From contig CAJNDT010003168.1 in NCBI GenBank assembly GCA_905221615.1, positions 508,923 through 572,922 of the forward strand: a DNA stretch of 64,000 nucleotides, written 5' to 3'. Shown in pieces: positions 14,985 through 34,399 of the stretch (position 1 is its first letter; every line of letters starts with the position of its first letter). The notes under the pieces are model-generated. The model did not search any database. It saw nothing but the letters and a program-made list of their open reading frames with translations, and was not told the DNA's origin. The translations under genes were made by a program, and so were the position numbers. The DNA comes from Symbiodinium sp. CCMP2592. Lineage: Eukaryota > Sar > Dinophyceae > Suessiales > Symbiodiniaceae.

Positions 14985-17105
14985 TTTCCGACCCCTCGCT
15001 GGGGCAGCTTACCTTAGACGACGCCACGATGAGAGTGGCCCATGGTTTTAAGGTTAGGCCCCTAAAAAACGGAGGTGGTAACTCCCCCGGTACGATGCCT
15101 CCCCACCTAGGTCTGGGTCCGAGGGCTACTGCTCTGGGTAAGTTCATCCGAGAAAAGGCCGGGCCCCTGGTCCCCTCCTTCCTAGCCTCCACGGCCGCGG
15201 GTGCCAAGCAGCACCCTTTCCCGGATTCTGTTCTTAAGGAAATTCGGGATTTCATCATGCCTCATCACCCCCAACCGGATGCAGGACAGCCCTTTTACTT
15301 GGATGTCATCAGGAAAACCCTGTGCGATACTCGGGTACTCTCCGGGCGTTTGGCCTCTGAAATCAGAGCTCATTGGAGAAGAGTGGGACCCGGTGGAGGC
15401 ACCACCCCCCACTGGCCATGCTAACTACTCCTCTGCTGGCACCTTCAGGGAGGAGATTCGGGCTACCTTCGTGGAAGACACTCCACTGGGTATGGTCATC
15501 GGACCATGCACGCGTGCCGAGGCAGCAGCGCACTGCCAGTGTGCGGAGGAAGAGCTATGCCCCTGCCCCATGGCGGGGATTGATGAGTCGGACAAGATCA
15601 GTTCGATGGCTGCAAGGGAGTATCCAACAGAACACAGTGGAGACCGACTGTCATGGACTGCGTCCAATGCCTCCATTGGCTCCGGGCATCACGTTCTCGT
15701 GGTAAGCCAGGTGCCCATGGCCCTGAGCCCGCGGAGGCCTCCGGGTCTCGTGAAACCACCCCTGGCTCGGCAAGCCCAGTACGGGACAGTCCCTCGAAAA
15801 AGGGAGACTCCAGCGCCGGTTCCGGCCGACCCTGGTGCTTCCCTGGCACGGATGACGAGTGGATCCTGCTCAAAGCTGATGTGACTAAGGCACACCGGAG
15901 GATCAAGATTCTCCTCCGAGAATGGCGCTACCAAGTGGCCCAGCTTGGTGAGGAATGGTGGGTTAACACAGTAGGCACCTATGGGATGGCCAGTGCCCAG
16001 CTCTACTGGGGAAGGATGGCTTCTAAGGATTGTGTATGCCGTTTTTCCGGAGGTCGACTGGGGTTTCGTTTTTGTCGACGACTTTGCCTGGTTGCTCCGT
16101 AAATCGAACTCCCCCCTCTTGGCGACGGCAATTTGCTTGCTGTTGCTTGCCCTCGGCACTCCCCTGAGCTGGAAGAAAACCTTGCTAGCTGAGGTCAATA
16201 GTTGGCTTGGCTTTGTCATTGACCCAAAAGGACCCTGCGTGCAGATGGCCGGAGACAAGCACCTGCTTGTCATGGGCATTCTTGAAGAGCTCAAAAGCGG
16301 TAAGGTCATGTCGGCCTCTCAGATCGCTAGTGCTTTGGGTAGGCTGCAATGGGCGACAACGGCCTGCCCCCTCACTAAGCCTTTTCTCCAACCCTTTTGG
16401 GCTTGGAAGAAGGCCTGCCAGACTGCAGGACGTCCTGGCAAGCTGATCCGTGCACTCTCGGCTCTTCTCCTCTCTCTTTTTGACCAGAAGTTCCGACAAG
16501 CATCGCCGTATGCCCCGCTTGCCATTTGGTCAGGGGCAAGTGATGCTAGCGCTTCGGATGATGGCAGCGCCTATGTGGGCGGCTGGCTTTCCAATGTGGA
16601 CTCCCCGTCCAAGTCGGAAGTCTTCCGGTTCCACTACCAGGTCACCGCGGAGCGACATCCATGGGCCTTTGATAAGGGCTGCCCGAAAAAGCGCATAGCT
16701 GCCCTCGAGATGTTCGGCACTCTGATCCTCTCTCACTTTCTCATGGAAAAGGCGCCTGCGTTCATCCCGAACCTCAGGCTCCCCCTGGTCAGCGACAACC
16801 AAGGGAATGTGTACTCGCTCCTGAACGATAAGTCCAAGAGGATGCCAACATCTGTCATCCTCATGGAGGTATTGTACCAGCTGCACCGGCATGGCATGCA
16901 GCTCGCTCCCTCCCACGTCAAGCGAGACTTTAACACGTGGGCTGATGATCTGACTCATCCCAACTTTCAAGGTTTCACTCCATCTCTCTGCTTGCCGGTG
17001 GAACCCGTGCTCAAGCATTTTTCCCTCATTCGCTCTATCTTGGAAGATCGTATTTTCGACGACCCATCTGACCTCACCCATGGGCCCGTGCAGGGCGCCC
17101 GGTGA
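14985..17105 (+). pseudogene. Reverse transcriptase plus RNase H of element 2, frameshifted
   Basis: N-terminal part FKVRPLKNGGG ... PPHLGLGPRATALGKFI (about 15045-15160). Fingers/palm start NYSSAGTFREEIRATF (about 15422). Palm motif A ILLKADVTKAHRRI (about 15865) and WWVNTVGTYGMASAQLYWG. After a frameshift near 16015, LLRIVYAVFPEVDWGFVFVDDFAW, whose FVDD is the catalytic motif C. Then LSWKKTLLAEVNSWLGFVID (primer grip/thumb). The RNase H-like part has SGASDASASDDGSAYVGGW, AALEMFGTLILSHF, LVSDNQGNVY and DFNTWADDLTHP, which follows the D-E-D-D pattern and the SDN/WADxLT style of DIRS-type RNase H. Frame changes near 15600 and 16015 and a copy of the dispersed motif at 15709 break the protein. 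The open C-terminal frame is 15981-17105. Confidence 0.75.
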
Positions 17106-17378: not shown

Positions 17379-19500
17379 TCGAATATCAGCCCTTTGCAGT
17401 CAGCTGCTGCGGCTGCTTCCATCCTGCCGAGCTGGGCATGCTGACCTGCTGGCCAACGCAGCAAGCGTATTGAGCATGCGAGCCCAAATCACTAGTGAAC
17501 TCACTCGCCGGGCCACGAAGATGCTGCCATAATGCTTTCCGAGGCAATGGGACCCAAAGGCAGATGCGGTGCGAACGTGGGACGAATTGGCTTTCTCGAT
17601 TTCTCGACTCAGCCTGTACATAGAATAAAGCAAAAGCAAAGTCTGGAGGCCCAGGTTGCTCAACGCTGACAGTAACAGCCGAGATATTGGGATGGTGGTT
17701 GCCTGGGCTGGCGTGGAAAGCACGGGAAGCCTGTGCATTGTCCGGCATCCCGTATAAATACAACTCTACGAATCTTGTGCATGCGGCAAGAAGCGGTACA
17801 TTTCAGCGTTGGACGGACACTACCGTTTCGGAGTCATACTGGGTCGATGCCCAAACCTGCAGCCAAAGCCTGCCAAGATGCACGGTCTTTCTAGCCCCGC
17901 CCCGTTTTGCTCTGAATTTCCGGGTTGGTCCCCTGAGTCTCTCTGAATCATGGATGGGTCCGTGAAGTGATCGGTTTGTTGCCTCGAAATTTACCTTTGA
18001 ATTGCGGGTGGGATGTGACTTGAAGCGCTTCTGCGGAAAATAACCTAAGTTACTGAGCTCTCGTTGTCCGCGGCCTGCTTATAGGGTTGCAGTTGACGTC
18101 ACCTGACAGCCGCGTGTTGCCTTGGCGTCAGGTCAATCTTCACCGAGCGCTCGGAAGGCGACATCGGTTGCGGTTCTGATTCGCGTATTGGGGTCCGGTC
18201 AGCACACATAGTTGCAAGGCTATGAGTAGGACTAGGATGTATTGATGCAGCGGTTGCATGAATTCGAAGCATAATTCGAAACCGCGCAAGCTTCTCAGAG
18301 AATTGGACAGCCCCCAACGTCAGTGCATTTTGACGGGCGACCGGCTGCAAGCATTTCTGCAATCTCTCGCAGTCTCGCAGGGCTTGGCTTCACCCAGACC
18401 TCCCTCGAGTTTGCACGTGCCGTGCTGCGGAGCTTGCGACGATGGCGGCAGCATCCCTTCCTGAGGCTGATTCCTCCCCCAAGTTTTTTGAGTTCGATCA
18501 GGTTAGCCCGTGCGAGCATTGTCCGTGGTTCCGACAGGGACAGTCTTGGTTTCAGTACAGGGCCGCACTGTTCACAATCCCGTTGCGACTCGCGCATTGT
18601 GGTTCAGAGATGCGGCACAGGCGGATGGTAATTGCCGGCATCGCCAAGCGCATGGAGGCTTGGTGAGTTCTGCCGCGGAACGATGGCACCAAAACGCATA
18701 GGAGCGCGGTTGTCGGTAGTTACATGTCAGGCTGACAATCCTTCCAGAAAATTCGCGGAGACCGCGTACCAAGCGTTTAAAGGATCACAGGACAAGCTTC
18801 GCAATGATCAGCTTGTGCAAGTGCTTTCCCCAAAATGCCGTGTGTAGCTAGAGCTCACGCAGAGCTCTCGATTCATGGAGACTCAGGTTCTCAACAGCGC
18901 ATTTTGTGGGAGCAGCCCTCCCCCAGATGCATCATGCTCTTCGCAGACCACGGCGAGCAACGAGTCTTTTTTGCAGGCATTGCCTCTTCGGGTCTTTCGG
19001 TCCTTCCGTCTTTCCTCCATGTCGGCAGGCCGGTGAGAGCGTGCGCACAACGCGCAGCAACAGCTCATCTGGCTCTGCTTTCTCGCCTGGCCGGGATCCT
19101 GAACGGAAGCTTCAAAGAAGGCACTGGCAATGCTGTCGACCCAGGTGGAAGAAGTGTTACTGGCCTCTACGTACGCCTGCACCTCAGGAACTCTCGCACA
19201 ATGACAGGCGACACGGCCAGGCAATATGCGCAATTTCTGTGAATTTTCTCAGTCTGTCGTTATTGGCTGGCCGGGGCAGCGGCAGCCCTTGCAGGCTGCC
19301 AGGTTTCTGAAACCTTCAAGCCCGCCCCGCACCCCAGATCATGCGAAACGTGCATGCTACTTCGCCAAACGGCATCGTTGATTGCTGCTGATTCACTGCC
19401 GATGCCATCGGAACCAAACATCCACACACATTTATCACCATTGTGCTGGTGATGATTGGTGCGTGTTGTACGGAGACCGGTAGAACACATCATGCAACAG
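17379..19500. other. Intergenic, no supported gene
   Basis: Several open frames of 60-135 codons overlap on both strands (for example 18442-18666 and 18835-19242), but none shows a domain, a repeated splice pattern or consistent coding character. Confidence 0.4.
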
Positions 19501-21465
19501 GCACATCATGACATGTCTGGAGGACATGAATGCCTAGGAACAAGTGTGAAAGACCCTTCCGAAGTAACCGATGATGCCCAGAGCACCTGTCGCCGACTTC
19601 ATGTGCAGAGTTGATGAATGCTGTTTGGCTAAGAGCGCTCGTCGTCTCGGAGAGGGTGTCAGGTTTGCGCCACGGGGTGTATCTTGCTGCGGGATATGCC
19701 AGTTCCGGCAGCAAATAAAGACCTTGGCAGAAGGTTTTTCCATGGTTCCATCATGCTACAGGCACATCATGCCTGGAGGACATAAATGCCTAGGAACAAG
19801 TGTGAAAGACCCTTCCGAAGTAACCGATGATGCCCAGAGCACCTGTGGCCGACTTCATGTGCAGAGTTGATGAATGCTGTTTGGCTAAGAGCGCTCGTCG
19901 TCTCGGAGAGGGTGTCAGGTTTGTGCCACGGGGTGTATCTTGCTGCGGGATATGCCAGTTCCGGCAGCAAATAAAGACCTTGGCAGAAGGTTTTTCCATG
20001 GTTCCATCATGCTACAGGCACATCATGCCTGGAGGACATAAATGCCTAGGAACAAGTGTGAAAGACCCTTCCGAAGTAACCGGTGATGCCCGGAGCACCT
20101 GTCGCCGACTTGATGTGCAGAGTTGATGAATGCTGTTTGGCTAAGAGCGCTCGTCGTCTCGGAGAGGATGTCAGGTTGCGCCACGGGGTGTATCTTGCTG
20201 CAGGATATGCCAGTTTCGGCAGCAAATAAAGACCTTGGCAGAAAGTTTTTCCATGGTTCCATCATGCTACAGGCACATCATGCCTGGAGGACATAAATGC
20301 CTAGGAACAAGTGTGAAAGACCCTTCCGAAGTAACCGATGATGCCCGGAGCACCTGTCGCCGACTTGATGTGCAGAGTTGATGAATGCTGTTTGGCTAAG
20401 AGCGCTCGTCGTCTCGGAGAGGATGTCAGGTTGCGCCACGGGGTGTATCTTGCTGCAGGATATGCCAGTTTCGGCAGCAAATAAAGACCTTGGCAGAAGG
20501 TTTTTCCATGGTTCCATCATGCTACAGGCACATCATGCCTGGAGGACATAAATGCCTGGGAACAAGTGTGAAAGACCCTTCCGAAGTAACCGATGATGCC
20601 CGGAGCACCTGTCGCCGACTTGATGTGCAGAGTTGATGAATGCTGTTTGGCTAAGAGCGCTCGTCGTCTCGGAGAGGGTGTCAGGTTTGCGCCACGGGGT
20701 GTATCTTGCTGCAGGATATGCCAGTTTCGGCAGCAAATAAAGACCTTGGCAGAAGGTTTTTCCATGGTTCCATCATGCTACAGACACATCATGCCTGGAG
20801 GACATAAATGCCTAGGAACAAGTGTGAAAGACCCTTCCGAAGTAACCGATGATGCCCGGAGCACCTGTCGCCGACTTGATGTGCAGAGTTGATGAATGCT
20901 GTTTGGCTAAGAGCGCCCGTCCTCTCGGAGAGGATGTCAGGTTGCGCCACGGGGTGTATCTTGCTGCAGGATACGCCAGTTTCGGCAGCAAATAAAGACC
21001 TTGGCAGAAAGTTTTTCCATGGTTCCATCATGCTACAGGCACATCATGCCTGGAGGACATAAATGCCTAGGAACAAGTGTGAAAGACCCTTCCGAAGTAA
21101 CCGATGATGCCCGGAGCACCTGTCGCCGACTTGATGTGCAGAGTTGATGAATGCTGTTTGGCTAAGAGCGCTCGTCGTCTCGGAGAGGGTGTGAGGTTTG
21201 CGCCACGGGGTGTATCTTGCTGCAGGATATGCCAGTTTCGGCAGCAAATAAAGACCTTGGCAGAAGGTTTTTCCATGGTTCCATCATGCTACAGGCACAT
21301 CATGCCTGGAGGACATAACGACTTGATGTGCAGAGTTGATGAATGCTGTTTGGCTAAGAGCGCTCGTCCTCTCGGAGAGGATGTCAGGTTGCGCCACGCT
21401 CGCAAATAAAGACTTTGGCAGAATTTGCCAGAAGATTTTTCGATGGTTCCTTATGCCACATGCCA
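19501..21465. repeat. Tandem satellite, 255/256-bp unit, eight copies
   Basis: Units start at 19501, 19762, 20018, 20273, 20528, 20784, 21039 and 21295. The last lacks about 85 bp internally and decays at its end. Each unit contains GCACATCATGCCTGGAGGAC, AGAGTTGATGAATGCTGTTT and GCAAATAAAGACC. Two variants occur, one with GGGTGTCAGGTTT and one with GGATGTCAGGTT; the T deletion explains the 256- versus 255-bp spacing. Each unit yields similar short antisense ORFs, which I treat as by-products. It is not a recognisable rRNA, spliced-leader or U-snRNA gene. Confidence 0.95.
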
Positions 21466-22512: not shown

Positions 22513-25500
22513 ATGTCAACATCTTGTCTGGAAAGTGAGGTTGAGCTCGTTGCTTGTCTCGGTGACAACTACTGCCCTGTAATACATCATGCAGCCTCCG
22601 GAGCGACCTTTGCCGAGCTCTCATAGCTGGGGCCGCTTAGCGCTTGTTGTCTAATTTGCTTTAGAACTGTAGGTCATGGACACCCCGGAGGCTGGGCTTG
22701 GAAGCCGAAGTTGAACCTGGACACTCACTCTGAGTGCTTGCAGGCTGGGCCCATAGAAAGCGCCCTGCGGAAACGAGGATGGACTCTCACCCACATCTTG
22801 AACACACACTATCACAGCCGCCTTGCTGCAGTTAAACGATGTCTGCACCCATGTGCTCCATGCACTCCAGTCACTTCGGACAGGGTGCACTCAGGTGATC
22901 ATGTGGGTGGCAATCTGCAGCTCAAGGCCACGCGCCGGATCACGTCCTTTTGTCAGGTGACAGCGCCACATGACCAGGCTGAGTTCCCGCAAGTCACGAT
23001 TGTGGGGCATCGCAGCCGGGCCCTTTCTCGGGTGCAAGCGCATCCATGGACGAAATCCGACACTGGAGACTCGCACTCGTTTCTTCAAGCGCAGCTACAA
23101 GTCTCGCGGAGTCTCGCCTTTAGACTGTTCCGAGGCATCGGCAAGGAGACCATCCCGGGCGTGGACCTTGAGGTGAGGCGTTGGTGGTGTTTCGTTGAAG
23201 GTGACTTGCGGTTTCACATAGGTAGCATTCTGCACGAGAGGATGCCTCAAACGATGCTGCCTCACCTTCTGAAAAGCTTGCATGCAGGTGGCCGAGGGTG
23301 ACGAAGTGCTCTGTGGTGTTCGGGGCTGTGCTTTGATGATTTGGTAGTCCCATACCAATGACACTTCGGTCTCTGTTGCTAAACGAATAAAGTCGTCAGC
23401 CGTGTTTGCATGCCATGAAGACTCACGAATCGGCGCTCTCGGAGGCTCAGCAGGGAAGGGAGCGCGTGCGCAAAAGAGCTTTGAGCTACCTGCACTAGGA
23501 GTTGCTGTAGATCCAGGCTCCTAGCTACACGGCTAAGTTCTCACTGGTAGCGACGCAGGTTGCAGTACTCCTAGCTAAGCTACGGTAGTGTTTCCTGATG
23601 GCAGCTCCGATGTTCGATGATGATCTTTTCGACTTTGGTCACGAGGCCGAGTACGACGACACCTTCGAGCGCGGAAGCGCCGAGAGCGCTGGCCAAGACG
23701 ACAGCGCCTTGACAGGCGCCGGCGCGGCCGAGGACGTGCCCAGTCAGGGCAGTGGACGACGACGAAAGCGTGGGGTACGCGGTGGCACAGGCTCTTCGGC
23801 CACTGAACATAAGTGGCGCTCAGGAGCAGTTCCGCAGGCCCCGGAGTTTGATGGCGACGTGGAGAGAGATCCCTATTGCTTGAGGCATTACCGCCGACGG
23901 CTTCTTCGATGGGTCAAGATCACCAAGGAGTTCCTCCCACCGAACGAGCAGGCTCTTCGCGCCTTGGAGAAGCTTACGGGCGAGGCAGAGCTTGAGTTTG
24001 AGGAGGTTTCCGATGATCGGTTCGATCATCCTGACGGAGTCTCCCGACTGTTGGGAGACTTGGAGAAGGCCTTCGGCGAGAGGGAAATTTTCAGACAAGG
24101 GGGTGTCATCAGGGAGTTTGAGTCGATTGGGAGAATGCAGGGGGAGTCCATCACGGCGTTCATTCGCCGTTTCAGGCTCCTCGAGAGAAAGTTGTCCGAG
24201 AACAAGGTCCCGAAGTACCCCGAGCAGGCCAGGGTGATCAAGTTGTTGGACGGGTTACGCTTGGACGAGAAGGCCACTGCTTCGATACTTTTGGCAGCTG
24301 GCAACCGCTACGAAATGAAGAGCGTGCTTGAGGCCCTCCGCATACAGTATCCTCCTGGCATGAGCATAACGGGTCTCCCCAAGGGTTTGTCATCGTTATC
24401 TTCGCGCTCTACCACTACGAGATCCTCTACCTCCCGGGTATCTACATACAAGTCTTCTGCCACTCACGGGAATCGCCGGAACCAGAGATCGCAGTCCAGC
24501 GGACGTTGGACTCAGTGGCACACTGAGTGGGACGGCGAGGATGAGACCGTGGACCAAGGTGGGGACTACGAGCCCGAAGAGGAGAACCAGGGCGAGGATT
24601 TCGAGTATGAGCCCAATCACGAAGAAGAGGGCAACGAGGATGACGATGAAGAGTTGATCCCCGAGGAGGCCGGCGACTCGCAGCCGACCGAGGAGGTGCC
24701 TGAGGATATGTCCGCGCTCTTGGCGGCGGCTGAGGCACTGACGGTCACGTCCAAGAAGCTTGCCGGTTTGGTGCAAAGTCGGGGATTTTATGTTCAGGGC
24801 AAAGGCAAAGGCAAGTCGCCGGGCAAGTCGGGCGGCAAGAAGGGCGGCAAGTCCAAAGGAAAGGGATCGCCGTCCGGAAAGGGTCATCCCAAGGGCAAGG
24901 CGAGCGGCAAGAAGGGCAAGCCTGGAGGTGCTGGTGGAGCCGCCGGAGCTGATCGCCAGAACAGGCTGAAAGGATCCTTGTGCCTTGGATGCGGGGCAAG
25001 TGACCACTGGATCAGGGATTGCCCGCATGTGACCCAGTTTCAGGCCCAAATGGCTTCGGCAGACTTGGAACTGGACGCTGAAGGTGCTCCAGTGTCAACG
25101 AGCTGGATGGTGAGCTCGCAGCCTGCCCCTACGGAGCAAAACGTGAGAGTGTTCAGAGTGCCGAGACCCCCGTCGATAATGTTGAGCACTTGCGAAGACG
25201 CCTCTTACATGATAGCTGATACTGGGTGTCAACGTCAGGTCGCGGGGAGTGTTTGGCATCAGCAGAAGTGTAGTGAGATTCTACCTCTTGTGCCACTCCG
25301 CTTTGAAGAAGTTTGTCGATTTTCCTTTGGTCCCACCAGTGGCATGCCGAGCAAGGGACGGTTTCTCTATCCTGCTGGGATTGCTGGGGAAGCGGTGATG
25401 CTTGGAATCAGCGAGGTCGAAGCTCCGGCGCCGGGACTACTCTCCAGGCGGACCATGGAGGCGCTTGGGGCTGTTCCGGATCTTTTGGAGGGTACTGTCT

Positions 25501-28500
25501 ACTTCAAGGCCTTTGGCAAGTCAACAGACCTGTTTTTGAGTCCTTGCGGGCATCTTGCGATTAAGATTGATGAGTGGCCCAACCATGCTTTCGACTGGCC
25601 CGGCAAGTACTCCACCATGCAGTTCAGTGGACAGGGACCCCCCGATGTGCTGCACGACAAAGCTTTTCCGCCCAGCAGAGTGAGGCTTCAAGCCATCAGC
25701 AATTCGAAAGTAGCAGCCCGACCTCCACATGCCTCGAGATCCTCATCCGAGATGGTTGACGAACTGGAGGATGTTGCTGGTGCATCTTCAGGAGTTCATT
25801 TACACGACCCAGATGGCGGTGCTGTACTACTCGGCGGCTACGCTTCGCCCGAAGTTGAAGGACATGGTGTTAAAGATGTACATGGAGCCCTGTTCGGCGG
25901 TGACGATGATGGGGACTCAAGCGGCGATGGCGGCTTCCAGTGCTTTGCAGCTGAATCATTACCGCAAGAGTCCGGCGAAGTGCGACCACACCTCCGGCAC
26001 GGGCACTCGGACATATGCCGCCGGAGGCCAGAGGATTCGCATTTGCGACTCCTGCGGGAGCCGTTGGGTTCTCACGCTGAGTGGGGAAGCGCTGGAGGCC
26101 GTGCCCAAGGCCAATCCAAGCGCGAAGACACCTCTGGGATTGACCGATGCCCAGAAAAAGAAGCTCGCAAAGGCCAAAGGAAAACCCAAGGACCAGAGCG
26201 AGGACAAAGGCGGCGCTTCGGACGGGTCGTGGCAGCGCTTGTCGGCATCCTCGCGGGAGCCATCACAGGCCAAAGCTGGACACTTGGGACTGACGCCGCC
26301 GCCTCCGCCGAGACCGAGCTGGGGTCCTCAGACTCAGAGTCCGAGCCTCTTCCGTATGAATGGGCAGAGAATGCCACCTCGTCAATGGCACTCGGGACGA
26401 TCGGCGGCAAGCTCGGACACCGACATGAGCGTCGAGACAACCGGCCAAGGTCGACAGAGCCGGCAACCTCGCCTGTTCCAGCGTCGCGAGGAGGAGAACC
26501 CCAACGAGGAGGAAGGCCCGGGCGGGCTCACGGCGCAGGAGGTCGACGAGATCCTCATGAGCCAGGCCAACGACGTGAACCTCTGGGAGGAAAGGATGGG
26601 TCGCGACGATTGGGATGTGGACGCTCGAGACGAGATGCCGTCCGAGATGAGACGTCAGTTCGAGGAGCGGGGCTACTTCTAGCCCAAGAGCGAGCAGGCG
26701 ATCCTCCTGTGCTACCCGTACATCCTCAAGGATCCGCCGATGCTCCTCTATGCTGCGAGGATTTTGGTTGCTTTGTGCTGAAGGCGGGAGTGAGAAAGCG
26801 GTTGAGCGGTTCAGCCAAACTGGTGCTGCAAGCTTGGGAGACCGAGGCACAGGTCTATGCAAACCGCGTCCAGTCAGCTAGGAAGCTTCGTGAGTACCGA
26901 GCTGACTTGATCGAGATCGACTGTGTGAGTGAGGACTTGTCCGAGAAGGCCCTGGAAGTCGGTCTGCGTGTGCTTGAGCCTGTGCAGCTAGCCCAGTTTC
27001 TGTGAACCCTCGGACCTTGAAGAAGCTTGTCGGCCGGCATAGACCGTTCCTCGTGGTTTGGAGGGTGAATGCAAGGCCTCGCTCGAAATCTGAGGAAGGA
27101 CGGATCCGTCAGGTTTGTCTCCTACTGCACGAGCTGCTCAGCGATGGTGTTCACTTTCCACTACGAGCCTGCGAGGACGAGGTCTTTCTGTCCGGACTTG
27201 AGCTTCGTCAACTACAGGCCGCTCCAGGAGTTCGACTACAGAACCGGGACGGCGTGACGTACATGACGAATCTCCCGGAGCTCCTTGCCACGATCTTCGC
27301 GAACCAAGCTGAGGCCCAACCGTTGAAGGAGGAGATCCAGTTGATCAAGGCTCTCCAAGATGTTCTTCATCAACGAGGAGATGAACGATGGAACCAAAAC
27401 TGGCAAATTTTCTCGGGTCTGCCGGGTGACGACGAGGCCTGGGTATGCGACGTTCATCATGATGATCCCTGGGAGAACTTTGATCTGCTGTGGGAACCAC
27501 CCGGTGAACCTCAGACCACCAGTGTGTTCTTCTTGGACATCAGCCGTCAAGAGGAATCGTGGAAGCCTCTTTTGCAAGAGGCTGAACAGAGGCTCAAGAA
27601 CCTCACGACCAATGGGGTCACCTTGAAGCCTTCACCCTACCTCGAGCGTGTGAAAGCCTTGGTGCCCTGGAAATTGCAAAGGGTGCAGATCTTCCGTGCG
27701 CCCAAACAGCGCCGATTGCCTGCTGAGGTATCTCAAGAAGGCACTCAGCACCGGGGAGCCGCCCATTATGCACAACGACGACACCATCGTCTTGGAGGCC
27801 GAGAAGATCAGCTCGATCATCCAAGCTCCGACCGGGAAGTTCACTAAGCCGGTCCGGATCGCCATCTTCTTCTACGGTGACGCTCCGGCTACAAGTATGA
27901 ACGACCAAGAGAACGAGTTGCCTGAGCAACCGAAGAATCGGCCTGAGCCCCGCGAGGGAGAGCCTCATGAGAAAATGCATGTCCACCAGCCGGGCTACCG
28001 CGACATCACGTTCCCCGGAGTCGATATCCCCAGCTGGATGCAGCAGGTACTTCGTCGCCTACATTGCAACCTTGGGCATCCACCTAAGGAAACGCTGGTC
28101 CGACATTTGGCAATCGCCAAGGCTTCAGAAGCTGCTCTCAAAGGGGCCCGTCATCTACGATGCGAGGTGTGTCTTCGTGTCAGCCCACCACATCAACCAC
28201 GAGTGTCTAAGGCCTTCCAGGCTCGGAGGTTCAATGATAGGATGTCCATGGATATCATCTACCTCAAGGACATCCGAGGAGGCACCCATATGTTCCTCAA
28301 CTGTGTGGACGATGCGACGTGCTATCAAGCAGCGTCAAGATTGTTGTCGAGATCAGAGGAGAATGTGGTGTCGAACCTGGTGAATGGTTGGTTCTGTTTC
28401 TTTGGGCCACCCGATGAGTTGACCATCGATGCGGAAGGAGCCTTTCGCGGTATGCGGTTCGAGTCGCTGCATGCGCAGCTGAATGTGGATGTTCGGTGCA

Positions 28501-31500
28501 TCCCTCCGGACTCACACTGGCAACTTGGAAAAGCCGAACGCCATGGCCAGGCGCTGCGATACAATGCCAGTCGTTTTATCAATCAGTTTGCTGCGCTCAC
28601 TGTGGCCGAGGTCAACGTATGTGTAGCCTCAGCAGCGCAAGCAAAGAACCGCCTTATGAGAAGGAGTGGATCCAGCCCCAATCAGTGGGTGTTCGGCAAG
28701 GACCCTAAACTTCCTGGAGCCTTGCTCAGTGATGGCGGGAGTATTGAGAGTGCACAGCTCACCAGCGACTCGGAACGTCTTATGCAGATCGAGAGCATTC
28801 GCGTGCAGGCCATGAACAACCACCACGAGTTCGAGGCTAACCAGGCGCTTCGGTCGGCACTGTTGCGGAAGAGCCGACCCTATCGTGGTGAGTTCTACCC
28901 CGGGCAAAAGATTGCTTACTTCCGCAAGCGAACTGCTGCTGGTGATGGAGAAGGCACCGTCGAGGGTTACCGTCAGGGAATTGTGGTGTCGCTGGATCGC
29001 AACCCCAATTCCAATGTTGCAGCCAATCTGTGGATTCGCAACACTCGAGGACGCCTCGTGCAGGCCTCACCCGAGCAGTGTCGGCCTGTCTTCGGTGAGG
29101 AATGGTGGTCGCCAGACCCTGCGGACCTGGAGGTTCTTAGAAAGTTTGACAAGGATGTGCAGTTGCATCCGAGGGCTTTTCGGCATTCTGACCATCCAGG
29201 TCCCGCGGATGACCGTCAAATCGCTGAGGCTATCGATGCACAACTGCCTCCACAACTGTCCGAGCCCTCGCAGGACGAGCCTTTGCAGCCGCAGCCAGGC
29301 ACTCCTGTTGTGCCCGAGGACGATACCGAACAGGCGCCGCGACCTACTCCGCTGACTTTGGATCCTGCTGGTCGCCCTGTGTTGGAGTCGCCTATGTTCA
29401 GTCCCCTTATGTTGATACCGCCTACGCCCCGTTCCGCACCAGGAACTCCGAGGACACGTGCGAGATCGAGGTCTGTCCCACGTCAAGGAGCTGAACGCGA
29501 TGGTGGCGGTGTACCCGAACAGGATCCAATGTCTTCCAACCTTGCACCTTCTGGTTTACCTCCTCGTGAGGATGAGGAAGACTTTCAGCGTGCTGTTTCA
29601 GGTTCAGATTTGACAAACTTACCCGGACAGGATCCGTCTCCCAACCGTGCACCTTCTGGTCCTCCAGGCATGAGCCGCAGAACATCTAGCGCTTCTACCA
29701 GGGGGGTGTCTCGTCAAGTCTCAGGCGTAGAGCCAATGTCCAAGATCGTTGAGACCGAATCTCCAGGGGGTCGTGGTTTGAAGAGGAGCCCCAGTGTTGC
29801 CGTTGGCGAATTGGCTGCTGATTCTGAAGGTGTTCGCAAATTATCTTCAGCACCCCATTCCTCAACGGGTCCTACGCCTCTTTCTGCTGAGCCGGAGTCT
29901 TCATTTCTCCTTTATTGTCAAGGATGCGGCGAACAGTACCGCAATTTTCCTGGCCGATGCGGTCGATGCAACAGTCAGCACGCTGTGACAGATGTACGTG
30001 ACGTGGTCTCTTGGCTAGATGAGGTCAAGGAGAGAGAGGCCTTCGATAAGCTGCTGGGTGTTACCCGTGATCATGTAGAACCGGCCCCTTCGCTCAAAGA
30101 TCCTCAAGTCCAGGATGTGATCGATGACTACCAGTCTCACGTTGCTGCTGCTGCGAACCGAGCTGCATTGCCAGCCTCCGAACCTCATGTACTACAAGCT
30201 TCGCAACTTGATGCACCACAAGCTTTGCAACCCTATGCACCACAAGCTTTGCAACCTCATGTACTACAAGCTTCGCAACTTCATGCACCACAAGCTTCGC
30301 AACCCTATGCACCACAAGCTTTGCAACCTCATGCATCACTGTCTACTACTACCACGTCGGCCGTCAAGGTTCCGAGTACACTTCATCGACTTGACGTGCT
30401 ACGACGACATGCCCGTGGCCAACATCTTCGCCAAGGCTGGGATGGATCGCCAGACGAGGTCCCGGGCATCTATGTTCACGAGGCCTTCCTTACGGCTGCC
30501 TATGTGTTCGGCAACGCCGATCAAGAGGAAGGTGTCTTTGCTCCCCATGCTGAGCCACATACAACGAGCATTGCTAGCGAAACAACTACGTCCAGTTATC
30601 CGACAACCTCCAAACCGCCTCCGCTGTCCGAGTCATTGGCCGCCTTGCTGCTGAAGAGGGAGGACTTCTCTCATGAGTCATGCCATCAGCTACTGCAGAC
30701 GGCCACCTACAAGCCAGTAGATCGACAGTGCTTGTCGGCAAGCTCTGGCGATGCTGGTTCCTTGACCTTGGGTTACTTCAGTCATGGCCGGCAACATGGC
30801 TTTACCAAGGCTACCGACAACAACCGCGCCCTGCTGAAGTACGTGAACGCCTACCTGAAGCACCACGGCCTCCAAGGCAAGACCAGCAGTGTGTTCATTG
30901 GGCGAAACATCCGGAGCCGCTACCACAAGGACGTCCACAACTCCAAGGGCGCCGCGAACTGGAGCATAGCCTTGGGGAACCATGTGGGAGGGCGTCTGTG
31001 GGTCGAGGCTGAATATGACTCGGCGAACTCCGGCGAATTTGTCCGGCGCTCCGTGAAGGGCAAGAAGGTCTACGGCAAGTTCCACGACAACTACCGGAAG
31101 CTCGTCCAGTTCGACCCGGACAACTACCACGGCACGGAGGAGTATGTGGGCGAGCGCTTCGTCATCACGGCTTACCAGACCAGACTGGCTGACTTAGCTT
31201 CGGAGGACTCGCTCAAGAAGATGCGCAAGCTGGGATTCAGACAAGGCGGCAAGCACGTGACCTTCACCACGGCCACAACCGCAGACTTCACTACAGACCT
31301 GCCCAAAGAAGTCCGTCCTCTCTGGGAGGTCTTTCCAGTGAAAGAGCAGTCCTCTGCTGGTCAAGAAGCGGAGAAGGTGATTGCCATGGAGTCCTCGTCC
31401 GACGAAGAAGGCTGCGATGGAAGCTCTGGCTTCGGTGCCAGGCGAGCCGCTCAACAAGCGAGGAAGAAAGAGGTACATTGGCAATCCATGACCGAGGACG

Positions 31501-34399
31501 AGATTGAGCCGTTTGTCGAGGCGCTCCGCAAAGAATGGTCAGAGTGGCAAAAGTGGGCCAGCTGTTCACCGGTGCACGTGAAGGAAGGCGCCATCGCCCC
31601 TCATCTGGTTCTTCGATCCAGAGTCTGTTATCGCTGGAAGCCGGCAGCCTCTGGTTTCAAGGCAAAGGCGAGAGTGGTAGTCGCCGGATTTCGCGACCCC
31701 CACTTACCGCTCCTGACTCGCGACGCCCCGGTCTTGGCTCGCGCATCACTGCACTTGCTTTTGCAATGGGCGGCGACCTTTCGGGTCAAGTTATGGAATG
31801 CAGATGCGAAGTCGGCCTTTCTCCAAGGAGACCCAGACTCTGAACGTCCTGAGCCGATCTTCATGAAGCCACCAGGTGACCCACTTGCGCTTCAAGCAGT
31901 ACCAGAGTGGCGTGTGAAAACGCTGTTGTACAAGCTGTCGGCACCGGTCTATGGGCAGTCCAATGCACCGAGACAGTGGTACAACCACTTTTCCAGGGTG
32001 CTTCGTGAACTCAGCTGGGAATCCCACAGTTTGGACCCCTGCTTGTTTCTGTACCGGCGCGACAATAAGGTCGTGGCGCTTCTGGGCCTCCACGTGGACG
32101 ACCTGCTGAGCTGCGCCTTGCCCGGCTACGAGGAGGTGCTAAACCGCGTCGAGTCCAAGTTCACCTGGGGATCACCGTGGACCAGTGGCGACTTCACCTT
32201 TGTCGGCCGGCACATCAAGCAATGGCCGGATGGATCCATAACGGTTGATCAGGCTTCGTACGTCGAGGAAGTCCCCGCCACACGTGTGAAGCTGGACGAT
32301 GCTGAGTTACTCAGCCAGCACCCGGAGCTGGTGACAGAGTTCCGTTCGGGCATCGGGTCGCTTCAATGGCTGGCATCAACCTCGAGAGGCGACATCGCCA
32401 GTGATGTGAGCCTACTGCAGAAGCCTCCTACACAACTCACGGTGGCAGACCTGAAAGAGGTGAACGCAGTCCTGAGGTACGTCCGAGCTACTGCATCCGC
32501 CTGCATCAAGATAACCCCGATCGATGTGGATCAGTTGATCTTCGTTGCCTACGGTGATTCTGGATTCGCGAACGCCCCGGGGAACAAGTCTCAGGGCGGC
32601 TTGGTCATTGTGGCGACGGACAGAGTGGCCAAAAACCAGGAGACCTCCGCCTCGCTGCTTGAGTGGAAGAGCTACCGTCACCAGCGAGTTTTGAGGAGTA
32701 CTTTGGCGGCAGAAGCAGCGGCGCTGGATCGTACACACGACCATGCGCATTTTCTCGCGATGACCTTTAGCGAGATGTGCGATGCCACCTTCATCTCCAC
32801 CCTCAACGACCGGCCGCTCTTTGAGGTTATTCCCGTGACTGATGCTAGGTCGCTTTGGGACTCAGTTCACAGGCTCACCACCTCGTTTCAAGAGAAGCGT
32901 GTAGAGCTAGATGTAGCAGCTCTTCGACAGACCTGTAAAGGCCTTAGATGGGTCCCGTCGGAACAACAGCTAGCAGACGCGCTCACCAAGCGCTCACGGG
33001 CTCTTCGTGACTCCTTCAGAGAATGGATGTCAAACCCAGTGGTCAAGCTCACAGACAGCAAAACACCGGCTGATCTGTTGGGGGCCAGCGCTAATGCAGC
33101 GTGGCGATGAGTCTTCAGGCATAAGAAAATAGTACCGGTGCTAAACGAATAAAGTCGTCAGCCGTGTTTGCATGCCATGAAGACTCACGAATCGGCGCTC
33201 TCGGAGGCTCAGCAGGGAAGGGAGCGCGTGCGCAAAAGAGCTTTGAGCTACCTGCACTAGGAGTTGCTGTAGATCCAGGCTCCTAGCTACACGGCTAAGT
33301 TCTCATCTGTGACATGACTTAGGCATTGCGTGCACGAGTGCCCTGAGCTGAAAGAAGACAGTTTGTTGGTTCTGTTATGAATCAAAACTTTTCTGAGGCT
33401 GGAAGTTGGTGGACACACAGTCGCCCACATCGCCTACTTCTTCGAGGAGGCACCGTTTCATGCCCTCTCCGATGCGTTCTAACGTCCGGCTCAAGTGGAC
33501 ACGCACAGGTTCCGATGGCCCTTACTGGCGATGCTCTTTTTACCATGGGATGCGGACGTGTGTTTACTGGTAACTTCGCGCAGATGCAGGAGCTTTCCTT
33601 GCACATCAGCTACTCGTGCAGTAGGGTCTATAGGAAAGAACTGCTGCAGACCTTCGGAGGCGTCTCTGAACAAGTTGCGGCAGCTTCCGGACGAGACGGT
33701 TGTGCTTGAAGCACAGTCTTTGGTCAGCTGCTGTTGTATTTTGAAGTTTCGAAGGTGTCTGCCACTGTGAGGTTTTCTTCGCACGAGTACACCCTGTCCA
33801 ACGCCAAGTTTGCAGCAGAGGCCTGGCGTGATCGACTCGGCGACTCGCGCGTCGGCGATTCTGCCTTGGACAGGTGGAGCCTGAGAATGTGGCACTCGAA
33901 GCTCGCAAAGCTCAGGCTGACAGAAGCACATACTAGGCTAGGGCTCTATGGGACGCCACCTTTCTTGAATCCCTTCCGCTCATAAGTGCAGAGCAGGCTG
34001 GAGCCTGCTTCAGTTGTTGCTTCTCAGCTTGTGCGAGGTGCGGACGATGCGCGATGCAAGCTTGGCCACCGTGCCAACCCTCCTGGGCTACGAGAAAGCG
34101 ACAAACCCCTTCCTTCGCTGGGATGTGCCAGCAGTACAAGAGGCCAGATGTGGAGTTGCACATTGCAACCAAGAAATTCTTGATAGGCTTTGCCATGCTT
34201 TGCCGTAGCGTCGAAGGCAGCTGGCGGACTATCGGGAGCAGTTGATGTGTTTACAGCTATACGAAAGTGGAAGGAGCTGCCTCCTGCAACCGTTCGTCAG
34301 CTGCGAAGCCATGCGGCCAAGCCATGCAGGACACTGGTATCAGACCCAGAGGAGCGGAAGCACGGCTCTGAGGGTGCTGTGACCCGCGGTTACATCTGA
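22513..34399 (+). CDS. GLO2: Hydroxyacylglutathione hydrolase (glyoxalase II), multi-exon, interrupted by a copia element
   Basis: This metallo-beta-lactamase-fold thiolesterase hydrolyses S-D-lactoylglutathione to D-lactate and glutathione in methylglyoxal detoxification. ATG 22513 starts VELVACLGDNYCPVIHHAAS, matching the family N-terminus (DNY). Next come IESALRKRGWTLTHILNTHYH (22744-22816) joined across a GC-AG intron to SDHVGGNLQLK, giving THxHxDH; AEFPQVTIVG; ETIPGVDLE; and VAEGDEVLC (23288). After the inserted copia element: GGHTVAHIAYFFEE (about 33405), VPMALTGDALFTMGCGRVF (33509), SLNKLRQLPDETVV (33660-33703), SSHEYTLSNAKFAAEAW (from 33772), LLGYEKATNPFLRWDV (about 34078) and DVFTAIRKWKE (about 34233), with the frame closing at 34399. 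Metal ligands are largely present. The joint after the first exon and the exon holding the HTPGH region are uncertain. The copia element lies in an intron, so the gene may still work if that intron is spliced. Confidence 0.9.
22817..22894 (+). other. GC-AG intron (78 nt) in glyoxalase II
   Basis: Splicing CACA|GC...TCAG|GTGAT creates HYHSDHVGGN, the metal-binding motif, in frame. Confidence 0.8.
22927..22977 (+). other. GC-AG intron (51 nt) in glyoxalase II
   Basis: Removing it joins GGNLQLK to AEFPQVTIVG in frame, as in family members. It begins GCCAC and ends ACCAG. Confidence 0.7.
23173..23287 (+). other. GT-AG intron (115 nt) in glyoxalase II
   Basis: Joins IPGVDLE to VAEGDEVLC. The donor is GAG|GTGAGG and the acceptor is TGCAG|GTG. 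Confidence 0.75.
23372..23376. repeat. Target-site duplication, left copy (TCTGT)
   Basis: Directly precedes the 5' LTR and is identical to 33306-33310. Confidence 0.9.
23377..23543 (+). repeat. 5' LTR, 167 bp
   Basis: Begins TGCTAAACGAATAAAG and ends CTAAGTTCTCA. No mismatch was found against the 3' LTR. Transcription start and stop signals are not recognisable, apart from the AATAAA at its start. Confidence 0.97.
23545..23560 (+). promoter_or_regulatory. Putative primer-binding site
   Basis: TGGTAGCGACGCAGG starts one base after the LTR. TGG is complementary to a tRNA CCA end, and the start resembles copia sites that pair with a methionine tRNA. The exact tRNA cannot be named. Confidence 0.6.
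23598..27005 (+). CDS. Copia Gag-protease ORF
   Basis: 1135 codons from ATG 23598, 55 bp after the LTR. The N-terminus is acidic. Residues about 85-260 form a helical Gag body (LRHYRRRLLRWVKITKEF, ESITAFIRRFRLLERKLSE). A glycine/lysine-rich basic stretch (residues about 395-450) follows, then a CCHC knuckle CLGCGASDHWIRDCPH (Cys at about 462) and the retropepsin core MIADTGCQRQV (Asp at about 541, DTG). From about 25730 to 26690 this frame stays open but looks non-natural, while the +1 frame looks like real protein. Natural sequence resumes near 26740 (FVLKAGVRKRLSGSAKLVLQ ... ADLIEIDC). The ORF packages and matures virus-like particles in copia elements. Confidence 0.85.
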   Translation: MAAPMFDDDLFDFGHEAEYDDTFERGSAESAGQDDSALTGAGAAEDVPSQGSGRRRKRGVRGGTGSSATEHKWRSGAVPQAPEFDGDVERDPYCLRHYRRRLLRWVKITKEFLPPNEQALRALEKLTGEAELEFEEVSDDRFDHPDGVSRLLGDLEKAFGEREIFRQGGVIREFESIGRMQGESITAFIRRFRLLERKLSENKVPKYPEQARVIKLLDGLRLDEKATASILLAAGNRYEMKSVLEALRIQYPPGMSITGLPKGLSSLSSRSTTTRSSTSRVSTYKSSATHGNRRNQRSQSSGRWTQWHTEWDGEDETVDQGGDYEPEEENQGEDFEYEPNHEEEGNEDDDEELIPEEAGDSQPTEEVPEDMSALLAAAEALTVTSKKLAGLVQSRGFYVQGKGKGKSPGKSGGKKGGKSKGKGSPSGKGHPKGKASGKKGKPGGAGGAAGADRQNRLKGSLCLGCGASDHWIRDCPHVTQFQAQMASADLELDAEGAPVSTSWMVSSQPAPTEQNVRVFRVPRPPSIMLSTCEDASYMIADTGCQRQVAGSVWHQQKCSEILPLVPLRFEEVCRFSFGPTSGMPSKGRFLYPAGIAGEAVMLGISEVEAPAPGLLSRRTMEALGAVPDLLEGTVYFKAFGKSTDLFLSPCGHLAIKIDEWPNHAFDWPGKYSTMQFSGQGPPDVLHDKAFPPSRVRLQAISNSKVAARPPHASRSSSEMVDELEDVAGASSGVHLHDPDGGAVLLGGYASPEVEGHGVKDVHGALFGGDDDGDSSGDGGFQCFAAESLPQESGEVRPHLRHGHSDICRRRPEDSHLRLLREPLGSHAEWGSAGGRAQGQSKREDTSGIDRCPEKEARKGQRKTQGPERGQRRRFGRVVAALVGILAGAITGQSWTLGTDAAASAETELGSSDSESEPLPYEWAENATSSMALGTIGGKLGHRHERRDNRPRSTEPATSPVPASRGGEPQRGGRPGRAHGAGGRRDPHEPGQRREPLGGKDGSRRLGCGRSRRDAVRDETSVRGAGLLLAQERAGDPPVLPVHPQGSADAPLCCEDFGCFVLKAGVRKRLSGSAKLVLQAWETEAQVYANRVQSARKLREYRADLIEIDCVSEDLSEKALEVGLRVLEPVQLAQFL
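25729..26682 (+). CDS. Overlapping ORF of the copia element with CxxC motif
   Basis: 317 codons in another frame inside the Gag-protease ORF. Content looks natural: LVHLQEFIYTTQMAVLYYS, then KCDHTSG ... RICDSCGSRW (a C-x-H...CxxC zinc-binding pattern seen in dinoflagellate copia proteins), GLTDAQKKKLAKAK, and an acidic C-terminus EVDEILMSQANDVNLWEERM. Either the polyprotein changes frame here by mutation or recoding, or the two frames are both used. No enzymatic domain is recognised. Confidence 0.6.
   Translation: MPRDPHPRWLTNWRMLLVHLQEFIYTTQMAVLYYSAATLRPKLKDMVLKMYMEPCSAVTMMGTQAAMAASSALQLNHYRKSPAKCDHTSGTGTRTYAAGGQRIRICDSCGSRWVLTLSGEALEAVPKANPSAKTPLGLTDAQKKKLAKAKGKPKDQSEDKGGASDGSWQRLSASSREPSQAKAGHLGLTPPPPPRPSWGPQTQSPSLFRMNGQRMPPRQWHSGRSAASSDTDMSVETTGQGRQSRQPRLFQRREEENPNEEEGPGGLTAQEVDEILMSQANDVNLWEERMGRDDWDVDARDEMPSEMRRQFEERGYF
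27002..27847 (+). CDS. Copia polyprotein segment, possibly a decayed methyltransferase-like region
   Basis: 281 codons in a third frame, starting within the stop of the previous ORF, so it is probably entered by frame change. Taken with the end of the previous frame (ADLIEIDCVSEDLSEKALEVG), the order resembles the start of a C5-methyltransferase fold (acidic motif I), then RPFLVVWRVNARPRS where Pro-Cys is expected, FPLRACEDEVFLSG, and YMTNLPELLATIF. No catalytic Pro-Cys or ENV remains. It continues WNQNWQIFSGLPGDDEAW ... RVQIFRAPKQRRLP and then passes to the frame of the main polyprotein near 27715. The methyltransferase idea is weak inference. Confidence 0.45.
   Translation: MNPRTLKKLVGRHRPFLVVWRVNARPRSKSEEGRIRQVCLLLHELLSDGVHFPLRACEDEVFLSGLELRQLQAAPGVRLQNRDGVTYMTNLPELLATIFANQAEAQPLKEEIQLIKALQDVLHQRGDERWNQNWQIFSGLPGDDEAWVCDVHHDDPWENFDLLWEPPGEPQTTSVFFLDISRQEESWKPLLQEAEQRLKNLTTNGVTLKPSPYLERVKALVPWKLQRVQIFRAPKQRRLPAEVSQEGTQHRGAAHYAQRRHHRLGGREDQLDHPSSDREVH
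27696..33110 (+). CDS. Copia Pol: integrase, zinc ribbon, 2OG-oxygenase-like module, reverse transcriptase, RNase H
   Basis: 1804 codons; the true start is probably by frame change, since the first ATG is at 27768. Residues about 117-155: GAG-pre-integrase HHCC (LHCNLGHPPKE ... LRCEVC). About 175-320: integrase with MSMDIIY, LTIDAEGAF and LGKAERHGQ as D-D-E. About 735-765: zinc ribbon YCQGCGEQY ... CGRCN. About 830-885: a 24-bp repeat encoding an octapeptide. About 1010-1180: 2OG-Fe(II)-oxygenase-like module (H1077, D1079, H1145, R1154). About 1290-1540: RVT_2 with VCYRWKPAASGFKAKARVVV, WNADAKSAFLQGD and LHVDDLL. About 1615-1790: RNase H with AYGDSGF, TLAAEAAALDR and TDARSLWDSV. Stop 33108-33110. 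The enzymatic motifs look intact. Confidence 0.93.
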   Translation: MRPNSADCLLRYLKKALSTGEPPIMHNDDTIVLEAEKISSIIQAPTGKFTKPVRIAIFFYGDAPATSMNDQENELPEQPKNRPEPREGEPHEKMHVHQPGYRDITFPGVDIPSWMQQVLRRLHCNLGHPPKETLVRHLAIAKASEAALKGARHLRCEVCLRVSPPHQPRVSKAFQARRFNDRMSMDIIYLKDIRGGTHMFLNCVDDATCYQAASRLLSRSEENVVSNLVNGWFCFFGPPDELTIDAEGAFRGMRFESLHAQLNVDVRCIPPDSHWQLGKAERHGQALRYNASRFINQFAALTVAEVNVCVASAAQAKNRLMRRSGSSPNQWVFGKDPKLPGALLSDGGSIESAQLTSDSERLMQIESIRVQAMNNHHEFEANQALRSALLRKSRPYRGEFYPGQKIAYFRKRTAAGDGEGTVEGYRQGIVVSLDRNPNSNVAANLWIRNTRGRLVQASPEQCRPVFGEEWWSPDPADLEVLRKFDKDVQLHPRAFRHSDHPGPADDRQIAEAIDAQLPPQLSEPSQDEPLQPQPGTPVVPEDDTEQAPRPTPLTLDPAGRPVLESPMFSPLMLIPPTPRSAPGTPRTRARSRSVPRQGAERDGGGVPEQDPMSSNLAPSGLPPREDEEDFQRAVSGSDLTNLPGQDPSPNRAPSGPPGMSRRTSSASTRGVSRQVSGVEPMSKIVETESPGGRGLKRSPSVAVGELAADSEGVRKLSSAPHSSTGPTPLSAEPESSFLLYCQGCGEQYRNFPGRCGRCNSQHAVTDVRDVVSWLDEVKEREAFDKLLGVTRDHVEPAPSLKDPQVQDVIDDYQSHVAAAANRAALPASEPHVLQASQLDAPQALQPYAPQALQPHVLQASQLHAPQASQPYAPQALQPHASLSTTTTSAVKVPSTLHRLDVLRRHARGQHLRQGWDGSPDEVPGIYVHEAFLTAAYVFGNADQEEGVFAPHAEPHTTSIASETTTSSYPTTSKPPPLSESLAALLLKREDFSHESCHQLLQTATYKPVDRQCLSASSGDAGSLTLGYFSHGRQHGFTKATDNNRALLKYVNAYLKHHGLQGKTSSVFIGRNIRSRYHKDVHNSKGAANWSIALGNHVGGRLWVEAEYDSANSGEFVRRSVKGKKVYGKFHDNYRKLVQFDPDNYHGTEEYVGERFVITAYQTRLADLASEDSLKKMRKLGFRQGGKHVTFTTATTADFTTDLPKEVRPLWEVFPVKEQSSAGQEAEKVIAMESSSDEEGCDGSSGFGARRAAQQARKKEVHWQSMTEDEIEPFVEALRKEWSEWQKWASCSPVHVKEGAIAPHLVLRSRVCYRWKPAASGFKAKARVVVAGFRDPHLPLLTRDAPVLARASLHLLLQWAATFRVKLWNADAKSAFLQGDPDSERPEPIFMKPPGDPLALQAVPEWRVKTLLYKLSAPVYGQSNAPRQWYNHFSRVLRELSWESHSLDPCLFLYRRDNKVVALLGLHVDDLLSCALPGYEEVLNRVESKFTWGSPWTSGDFTFVGRHIKQWPDGSITVDQASYVEEVPATRVKLDDAELLSQHPELVTEFRSGIGSLQWLASTSRGDIASDVSLLQKPPTQLTVADLKEVNAVLRYVRATASACIKITPIDVDQLIFVAYGDSGFANAPGNKSQGGLVIVATDRVAKNQETSASLLEWKSYRHQRVLRSTLAAEAAALDRTHDHAHFLAMTFSEMCDATFISTLNDRPLFEVIPVTDARSLWDSVHRLTTSFQEKRVELDVAALRQTCKGLRWVPSEQQLADALTKRSRALRDSFREWMSNPVVKLTDSKTPADLLGASANAAWR
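30170..30345 (+). repeat. In-frame 24-bp minisatellite in copia Pol
   Basis: About seven copies of a 24-bp unit (CATGCACCACAAGCTTTGCAACCT type) encode repeats such as APQALQPY and VLQASQLH. They lie in the linker between integrase and the oxygenase-like module, with alternating unit variants. Confidence 0.9.
33139..33305 (+). repeat. 3' LTR, 167 bp
   Basis: Identical to 23377-23543 on reading. The preceding AAGAAAATAG is only a weak polypurine tract. Confidence 0.97.
33306..33310. repeat. Target-site duplication, right copy (TCTGT)
   Basis: Directly follows the 3' LTR and is identical to 23372-23376. Confidence 0.9.

Follow-up and report, generated by a model that had tools for sequence, protein, structure and literature searches.

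Mobile elements that carry oxygenases are already known, and they are summarized here as far as the cited passages of each source go. TET genes are borne by DNA transposons in fungi (PMC12730594), and Ty3/Gypsy elements of orchids encode an AlkB domain with N6-methyladenine (m6A) demethylase activity in vitro (PMC9289625). The orchid case is the only published one that we found for a long terminal repeat (LTR) retrotransposon in the open-licence literature. Its ALKBH5-like domain (pfam13532) lies in a separate open reading frame (ORF), ORF2, beside the polyprotein ORF1 and was recently acquired in Phalaenopsis. For plant Copia elements, its authors noted no gain of a domain (PMC9289625). Plant RNA viruses, although not retroelements, have an AlkB-family 2-oxoglutarate (2OG) oxygenase inside the replication polyprotein (PMC9289625). 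Abundant dinoflagellate retroelements with varied domain orders also encode a base-modifying enzyme, but in SymbioDIRS-Dnmt3 and SymbioLINE-Dnmt this is a methyltransferase, carried by DIRS and LINE elements (PMC5890265). Copia is the most abundant retroelement superfamily in Symbiodinium, where CG methylation is ubiquitous, and according to the same source it contains no DNMT domain of any sort (PMC5890265); the main text of that paper uses none of the terms dioxygenase, TET and 2OG. Here, we describe a predicted Fe(II)/2OG oxygenase domain within the Pol polyprotein of a Ty1/Copia retrotransposon of Symbiodinium sp. CCMP2592. The element lies in a stretch of 64,000 nucleotides (contig CAJNDT010003168.1, positions 508,923 to 572,922), hereafter the window. 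New in this case is a mobile-element oxygenase that is located in Copia Pol, is old and diverse, and occurs in three domain orders. Among the titles and abstracts listed for the open-licence literature, none reports an oxygenase in a dinoflagellate or Copia element, which does not establish that no such report is in print.

Predicted fold and invariant residues of the Pol domain

The oxygenase domain was modelled over 30693..31268 (P0008, 192 aa); this stretch and all features of the domain given below are on the plus strand. The conserved core covers Pol residues 1024-1181 (30765..31238, bounds from a hidden Markov model, HMM). The motifs SRYHKDVHN, GNHVGGRLW, LVQFDPDNYHG and VGERFVITAY start at Pol residues 1074 (nt 30915), 1094, 1136 and 1151, respectively. 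In the translated Pol the four residues named in the earlier note stand where it had put them, the putative iron ligands being H1077 (30924..30926), D1079 (30930..30932) and H1145 (31128..31130), and the putative 2OG-binding arginine R1154 (31155..31157). The placement between integrase and reverse transcriptase also agrees with the Pfam matches on either side, rve at Pol residues 178-272 (26.8 bits, E 6.6e-6, below its cut-off of 32.6) and RVT_2 at residues 1318-1526 (56.7 bits, E 3.5e-15, above its cut-off).

By sequence alone, none of Pfam, PHROGs, NCBIfam and the PDB returned a 2OG family for the window copy, and further copies were therefore needed. Single-sequence searches and profiles built from close relatives likewise returned no 2OG match. 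Weak matches to Pfam RPT, three PHROGs and NCBIfam PRK10628 (E 0.03 or worse) were taken as chance. No related protein of near-domain size (0.55-1.75x) was found at E 1e-3 among 36 candidates, and neither viral contigs nor phages searched by tblastn gave a relative with a meaningful E-value.

When the 192-aa domain was searched against the 1.1-Gb assembly, 4073 first-look candidates came up, including 150 scored matches with 32-100% identity, so that the genome holds at least 150 copies; the matches listed are free of internal stops. Seventy loci, obtained as sets of 30 and 40 and including the window's own copy, were analysed in detail; they are the best-scored and hand-chosen ones rather than a random sample. 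A profile search detected the domain in all 70, divided over two frames in L006, and clustering at 85% left 29 representative rows, with the L006 halves counted separately. The alignment used below (A5) consists of 30 copies, namely the window copy and 29 of the 70 loci, which are 28-97% identical to it. It leaves out L002 (the window copy itself), near-copies, L006 with its two frames, and L036 and L045, which have a stop in the added flank, while L007 was shortened. Thirteen columns are invariant (H78, D80, N83, G95, G100, W103, G128, F140, H146, G153, R155, R164 and F182 in P0008 numbering, to which 999 is added for Pol numbering). The HxD...H iron triad and the 2OG-binding arginine, whose conservation among related Copia elements the earlier note had proposed as a test, are thus invariant in 30/30 copies together with nine further columns.

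Two gene models, P0006 and P0007, lack the HxD stretch and were considered as counter-evidence. Their best genome match (G000:C310:245622-246166; 91-99% identity) extends over 545 bases and two frames, compared with 471 for the modelled protein. We therefore take it for a frameshifted copy whose HxD stretch was lost through splicing in the gene model, which does not count against the motif. Gene models of this kind would conceal the active site from surveys. P0010 lacks VGDR and hence R1154.

With the 30 genome copies as input, AlphaFold (AF2) gave a model of P0008 with a predicted local distance difference test score (pLDDT) of 90.1 and a predicted template-modelling score (pTM) of 0.86. It replaced a model from just 8 closely related sequences (pLDDT 32.3), which was discarded. 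The model has the double-stranded beta-helix (DSBH) fold of 2OG enzymes, the fold that the earlier note had made decisive. The PDB structural matches listed are 2OG enzymes, and the best neighbours are TET2, NgTET1, CcTet and AlkB-type nucleic-acid oxygenases. The TET/JBP enzymes TET2, NgTET1, CMD1 and CcTet share both the DSBH fold and the HxD...H...R order. The predicted fold and the invariant H/D/H/R residues together identify the domain, almost certainly, as an Fe(II)/2OG oxygenase. A non-catalytic DSBH module of Pol, serving nucleic-acid binding or particle assembly, would accord with the variable position of the domain in Pol and with the lack of a known activity. However, mere binding needs neither metal ligands nor a 2OG arginine, and these are invariant in 30/30 copies while most positions vary, which makes a purely structural role highly improbable.

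Domain order and selection in Copia elements

All loci were scanned with HMMs for integrase, the domain, reverse transcriptase (RT) and RNase H. The domain order could be read in 54/70, and larger stretches were taken around seven of the 70. The domain precedes the integrase in 49 loci, precedes RT-RNase H as in the window in 5, and is the only one of these domains in the stretch first taken in 16. In the larger stretches around six of the 49 (L073-L078) the order is domain-integrase-RT, whereas that around one of the 16 (L072) reads integrase-RT-domain, followed by a Tpt1/KptA domain. An integrase upstream of the domain is also present in P0001, P0002, P0003 and P0007, which have the window-type arrangement. 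The domain thus has three locations in Copia Pol: before the integrase, between integrase and RT, and after RT. The earlier suggestion of a one-off insertion into a Copia polyprotein does not hold, as the domain is common in the Copia elements of this genome.

For the tree, which was rooted at the midpoint only, the 74 sequences were reduced to 31 representatives, and 2 of these representatives belong to no group. The seven integrase-domain-RT rows lie on one side of a branch with support 99/97 and require one change; the 21 domain-integrase rows require two. The position seen in the window is therefore of single origin, and it most likely arose by a shift within Pol rather than by fresh capture.

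Two of the larger stretches encode further domains. The Copia-like polyprotein of L072 (L072:1605-9998; G000:C106:12300-22299) includes the RNA 2'-phosphotransferase Tpt1/KptA (PF01885, 32.5 bits, cut-off 26), a second enzyme that is not expected in a retroelement. In the Copia Pol of L073 (L073:3-7463; G000:C5040; open frame 4844 aa) the oxygenase domain is preceded by a zinc finger of the CCCH type (PF00642, 34.3 bits).

The domain is under purifying selection, similar to its flanks. Median pairwise ratios of nonsynonymous to synonymous substitution (dN/dS), from pairs that are non-independent, were 0.081, 0.043, 0.064 and 0.034 for dS 0.05-0.1, 0.1-0.2, 0.2-0.4 and 0.4-0.8, respectively. 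They were 0.19 at dS 0.02-0.05, 0.28 at dS 0.005-0.02, and 0.59 in 16 pairs at dS 0.8-1.5, close to saturation. The window copy and its nearest relative L003 give 0.28, a value based on few changes. Ratios of nonsynonymous to synonymous differences per site (pN/pS) for upstream flank, domain and downstream flank were 0.069/0.073/0.116 in the L008 group, 0.090/0.051/0.168 in the L031 group and 0.058/0.193/0.236 in the L034 group, where the domain is less constrained than the upstream flank.

Family membership, substrate and possible role

The earlier note had named Pfam families to search. The window copy has no 2OG match there, but its relatives L008, L031 and L064 exceed the curated cut-off of 2OG-FeII_Oxy_3 (PF13640, 27 bits) with 27.8-29.0 bits. 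Over all 30 copies at E<=1, this family was returned for 3 (best 2.2e-6) and Tet_JBP (PF12851) for 5 (best 1.7e-4, L005); the full ORF of L073 scores 22.4 bits against 2OG-FeII_Oxy_3. A prolyl or other protein hydroxylase of the 2OG-FeII_Oxy_3/PKHD type, with Gag, histone-like or host proteins as its substrates, is distinctly unlikely. The higher-ranked structural neighbours are nucleic-acid enzymes, yet the margin is within about 1 Z, and the residue three positions after the HxD Asp (D+3) is invariably Asn in the Symbiodinium domain, compared with Thr, as judged by eye, in the phage protein PiuC. These points favour a nucleic acid over a protein, and the predicted oxygenase probably acts on a nucleic-acid substrate.

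The curated Tet_JBP cut-off of 34.9 bits is reached by none of the 30 copies (best 21.3 bits, L005). A genome-wide search with 150/155 candidates scored gave 4 Tet_JBP matches, all below the cut-off (best 29.6 bits); this search was run in six frames, and no match exceeded the cut-off, introns possibly breaking matches. The A5 profile returned no 2OG match from the PDB. As its scores stay short of the curated family threshold, the domain is not filed as TET/JBP, and membership of that family is unproven. Besides scoring below the Tet_JBP cut-off, it differs from known TET/JBP enzymes in being compact and in lying within Copia Pol. The most Tet_JBP-like version of the domain occurs in L079-L082 (open frames of 1231-1283 aa; L079 26.8 bits), where no integrase or RT match was found within the stretch examined. 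A profile including two copies of this type returned only CcTet from the PDB, at E ~1. A C5-methyltransferase part behind the domain in L079-L082, suggested by motifs seen by eye, found no support when L079 was searched against Pfam and the PDB.

Individual active-site residues bear on the kind of substrate. In CMD1, TET2 and NgTET1 the N4 of the base is held by Asp350, Asn1387 and Asp234 and the ring is stacked by Phe416, Tyr1902 and Phe295, respectively; by the published numbering, the base-holding residue is at D+3 in CMD1, and the stacking residue is six positions after the 2OG-binding arginine (R+6) in all three (PMC7854593). The Symbiodinium domain resembles them at both sites. The residue at D+3 is Asn in 30/30 copies (N1082, 30939..30941), and R+6 (Y1160, 31173..31175) is Tyr in 25, Phe in 2 and His in 3. 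The D+3 positions of TET2 and NgTET1 rely on what we take to be the place of their HxD Asp. The domain differs at R+8, which is His in TET2 and NgTET1 and Arg in CMD1; His is found in 0/30 copies (Thr 14, Ser 9, Asn 3, Val 2, Pro 2). R+9 is Arg in 30/30 (R1163, 31182..31184). Two comparisons weigh against a TET-like reading: D+3 is occupied by Gly in CcTet, and a Tyr at R+6 is also present in phage PiuC. Neither feature therefore defines the TET family.

Like the orchid Gypsy and RNA virus enzymes, the domain could instead be an AlkB-type RNA/DNA N-demethylase that removes m6A, 1-methyladenine or 3-methylcytosine from the element's own RNA. ABH2, ABH3 and AlkB are level with TET2 as structural neighbours. 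The AlkB hallmark is RxNxTxR, with Arg at R+6. This Arg occurs in 0/30 copies, and the Pfam scan that returned Tet_JBP and 2OG-FeII_Oxy_3 gave no AlkB family at E<=1, so that the AlkB type appears unlikely. The residue details thus lean towards a TET-like rather than an AlkB-like enzyme, apparently with a pocket of its own kind.

On balance, we favour an old, selected, Pol-encoded Fe(II)/2OG oxygenase of Symbiodinium Ty1/Copia elements, most likely acting on a nucleic-acid base. The analyses yield the predicted fold, the invariant residues for metal and 2OG, the high copy number, the three locations in Pol and the purifying selection; its catalysis, its DNA substrate, the base concerned, and the timing and benefit of its action are inferred. 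That it oxidises 5-methylcytosine or thymine in DNA has about an even chance of being right. The oxygenase would be translated together with integrase and RT and then either released or retained in the particle. It might oxidise 5-methylcytosine or thymine in the element cDNA, the fresh insertion or the target DNA, and the oxidised copy could thereby escape silencing or pass for host DNA. Retroelements with DNMT are known in the genus and TET genes in DNA transposons; an oxygenase in Copia Pol would supply the opposite chemistry. With a domain that folds like enzymes modifying DNA and RNA bases, these elements may be able to alter chemical marks carried by DNA or RNA.

5-Hydroxymethyluracil (5hmU) is plentiful in dinoflagellates and in general is ascribed to TET-family enzymes, the dinoflagellate enzyme not being named in the cited passages (PMC6723414). 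In a 5hmU pull-down from Breviolum, multimapping reads were about 2-fold enriched (PMC11071213). It is conceivable, but very unlikely, that oxidised bases in dinoflagellate chromatin stem from the Copia oxygenases, whose copies number at least 150 and may run into the thousands, and which would hydroxylate thymine or 5-methylcytosine in their own insertions first and then genome-wide. As 5hmU replaces 12-70% of T in dinoflagellates, a retroelement enzyme would, if this were true, write a major mark of the host genome.

The host element and its surroundings

The element that carries the domain spans 23377..33305 (plus strand, as are its LTRs, ORFs and domains) and has the gag/protease, integrase, RT and RNase H regions of a Ty1/Copia retrotransposon. 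The integrase lies upstream of RVT_2, and the element has LTRs and a short target duplication, in keeping with Ty1/Copia. The 5' LTR (23377..23543; 167 bp, TG...CA) and the 3' LTR (33139..33305; 167 bp) are 100% identical and are flanked by the 5-bp duplication TCTGT (23372..23376 and 33306..33310); the element is therefore a recent insertion, and it is complete. The first ORF (23598..27005, 1135 aa) encodes Gag and a protease named by eye, with a CCHC knuckle and a DTG motif at about residue 541 (IADTGCQ at residue 539); Pfam zf-CCHC_2 and Retrotrans_gag both match weakly, below their cut-offs. The middle ORF (27002..27847, 281 aa) is in a different frame and corresponds to residues 1073-1326 of P0002 (254 aa aligned, 98% identity), a protein that is also 97% identical to the window copy across the oxygenase domain. 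The Pol frame is open over 27654..33110, and the listed ORF (27696-33110) translates into 1804 aa without a stop.

Within Pol, the integrase region (residues 121-410, 28056..28925, HMM match) is followed by a zinc-ribbon-like CxxC...CxxC stretch identified by eye (residues 741-758, 29916..29969). A 24-bp (8-aa) tandem repeat at 30140-30339 separates this stretch from the oxygenase domain. Downstream of the domain are RT (residues 1302-1559, 31599..32372, HMM) and RNase H with the C-terminal end of Pol (residues 1561-1804, 32376..33107), which is common to the relatives and named by position and by eye. In a copy on contig C507 the domain lies inside one open frame of 3175 aa, whereas the coding region of the window copy is divided over three ORFs, which may reflect recoding or damage.

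Elsewhere in the window, a 374-aa ORF at 15981-17105 resembles a DIRS-type reverse transcriptase by eye and has no Pfam match at E 0.1, and an Rfam scan of the window gave no family reaching its gathering score. Upstream of the Copia element, at 19409-21398, a unit of about 256 bp is repeated in tandem seven to eight times.
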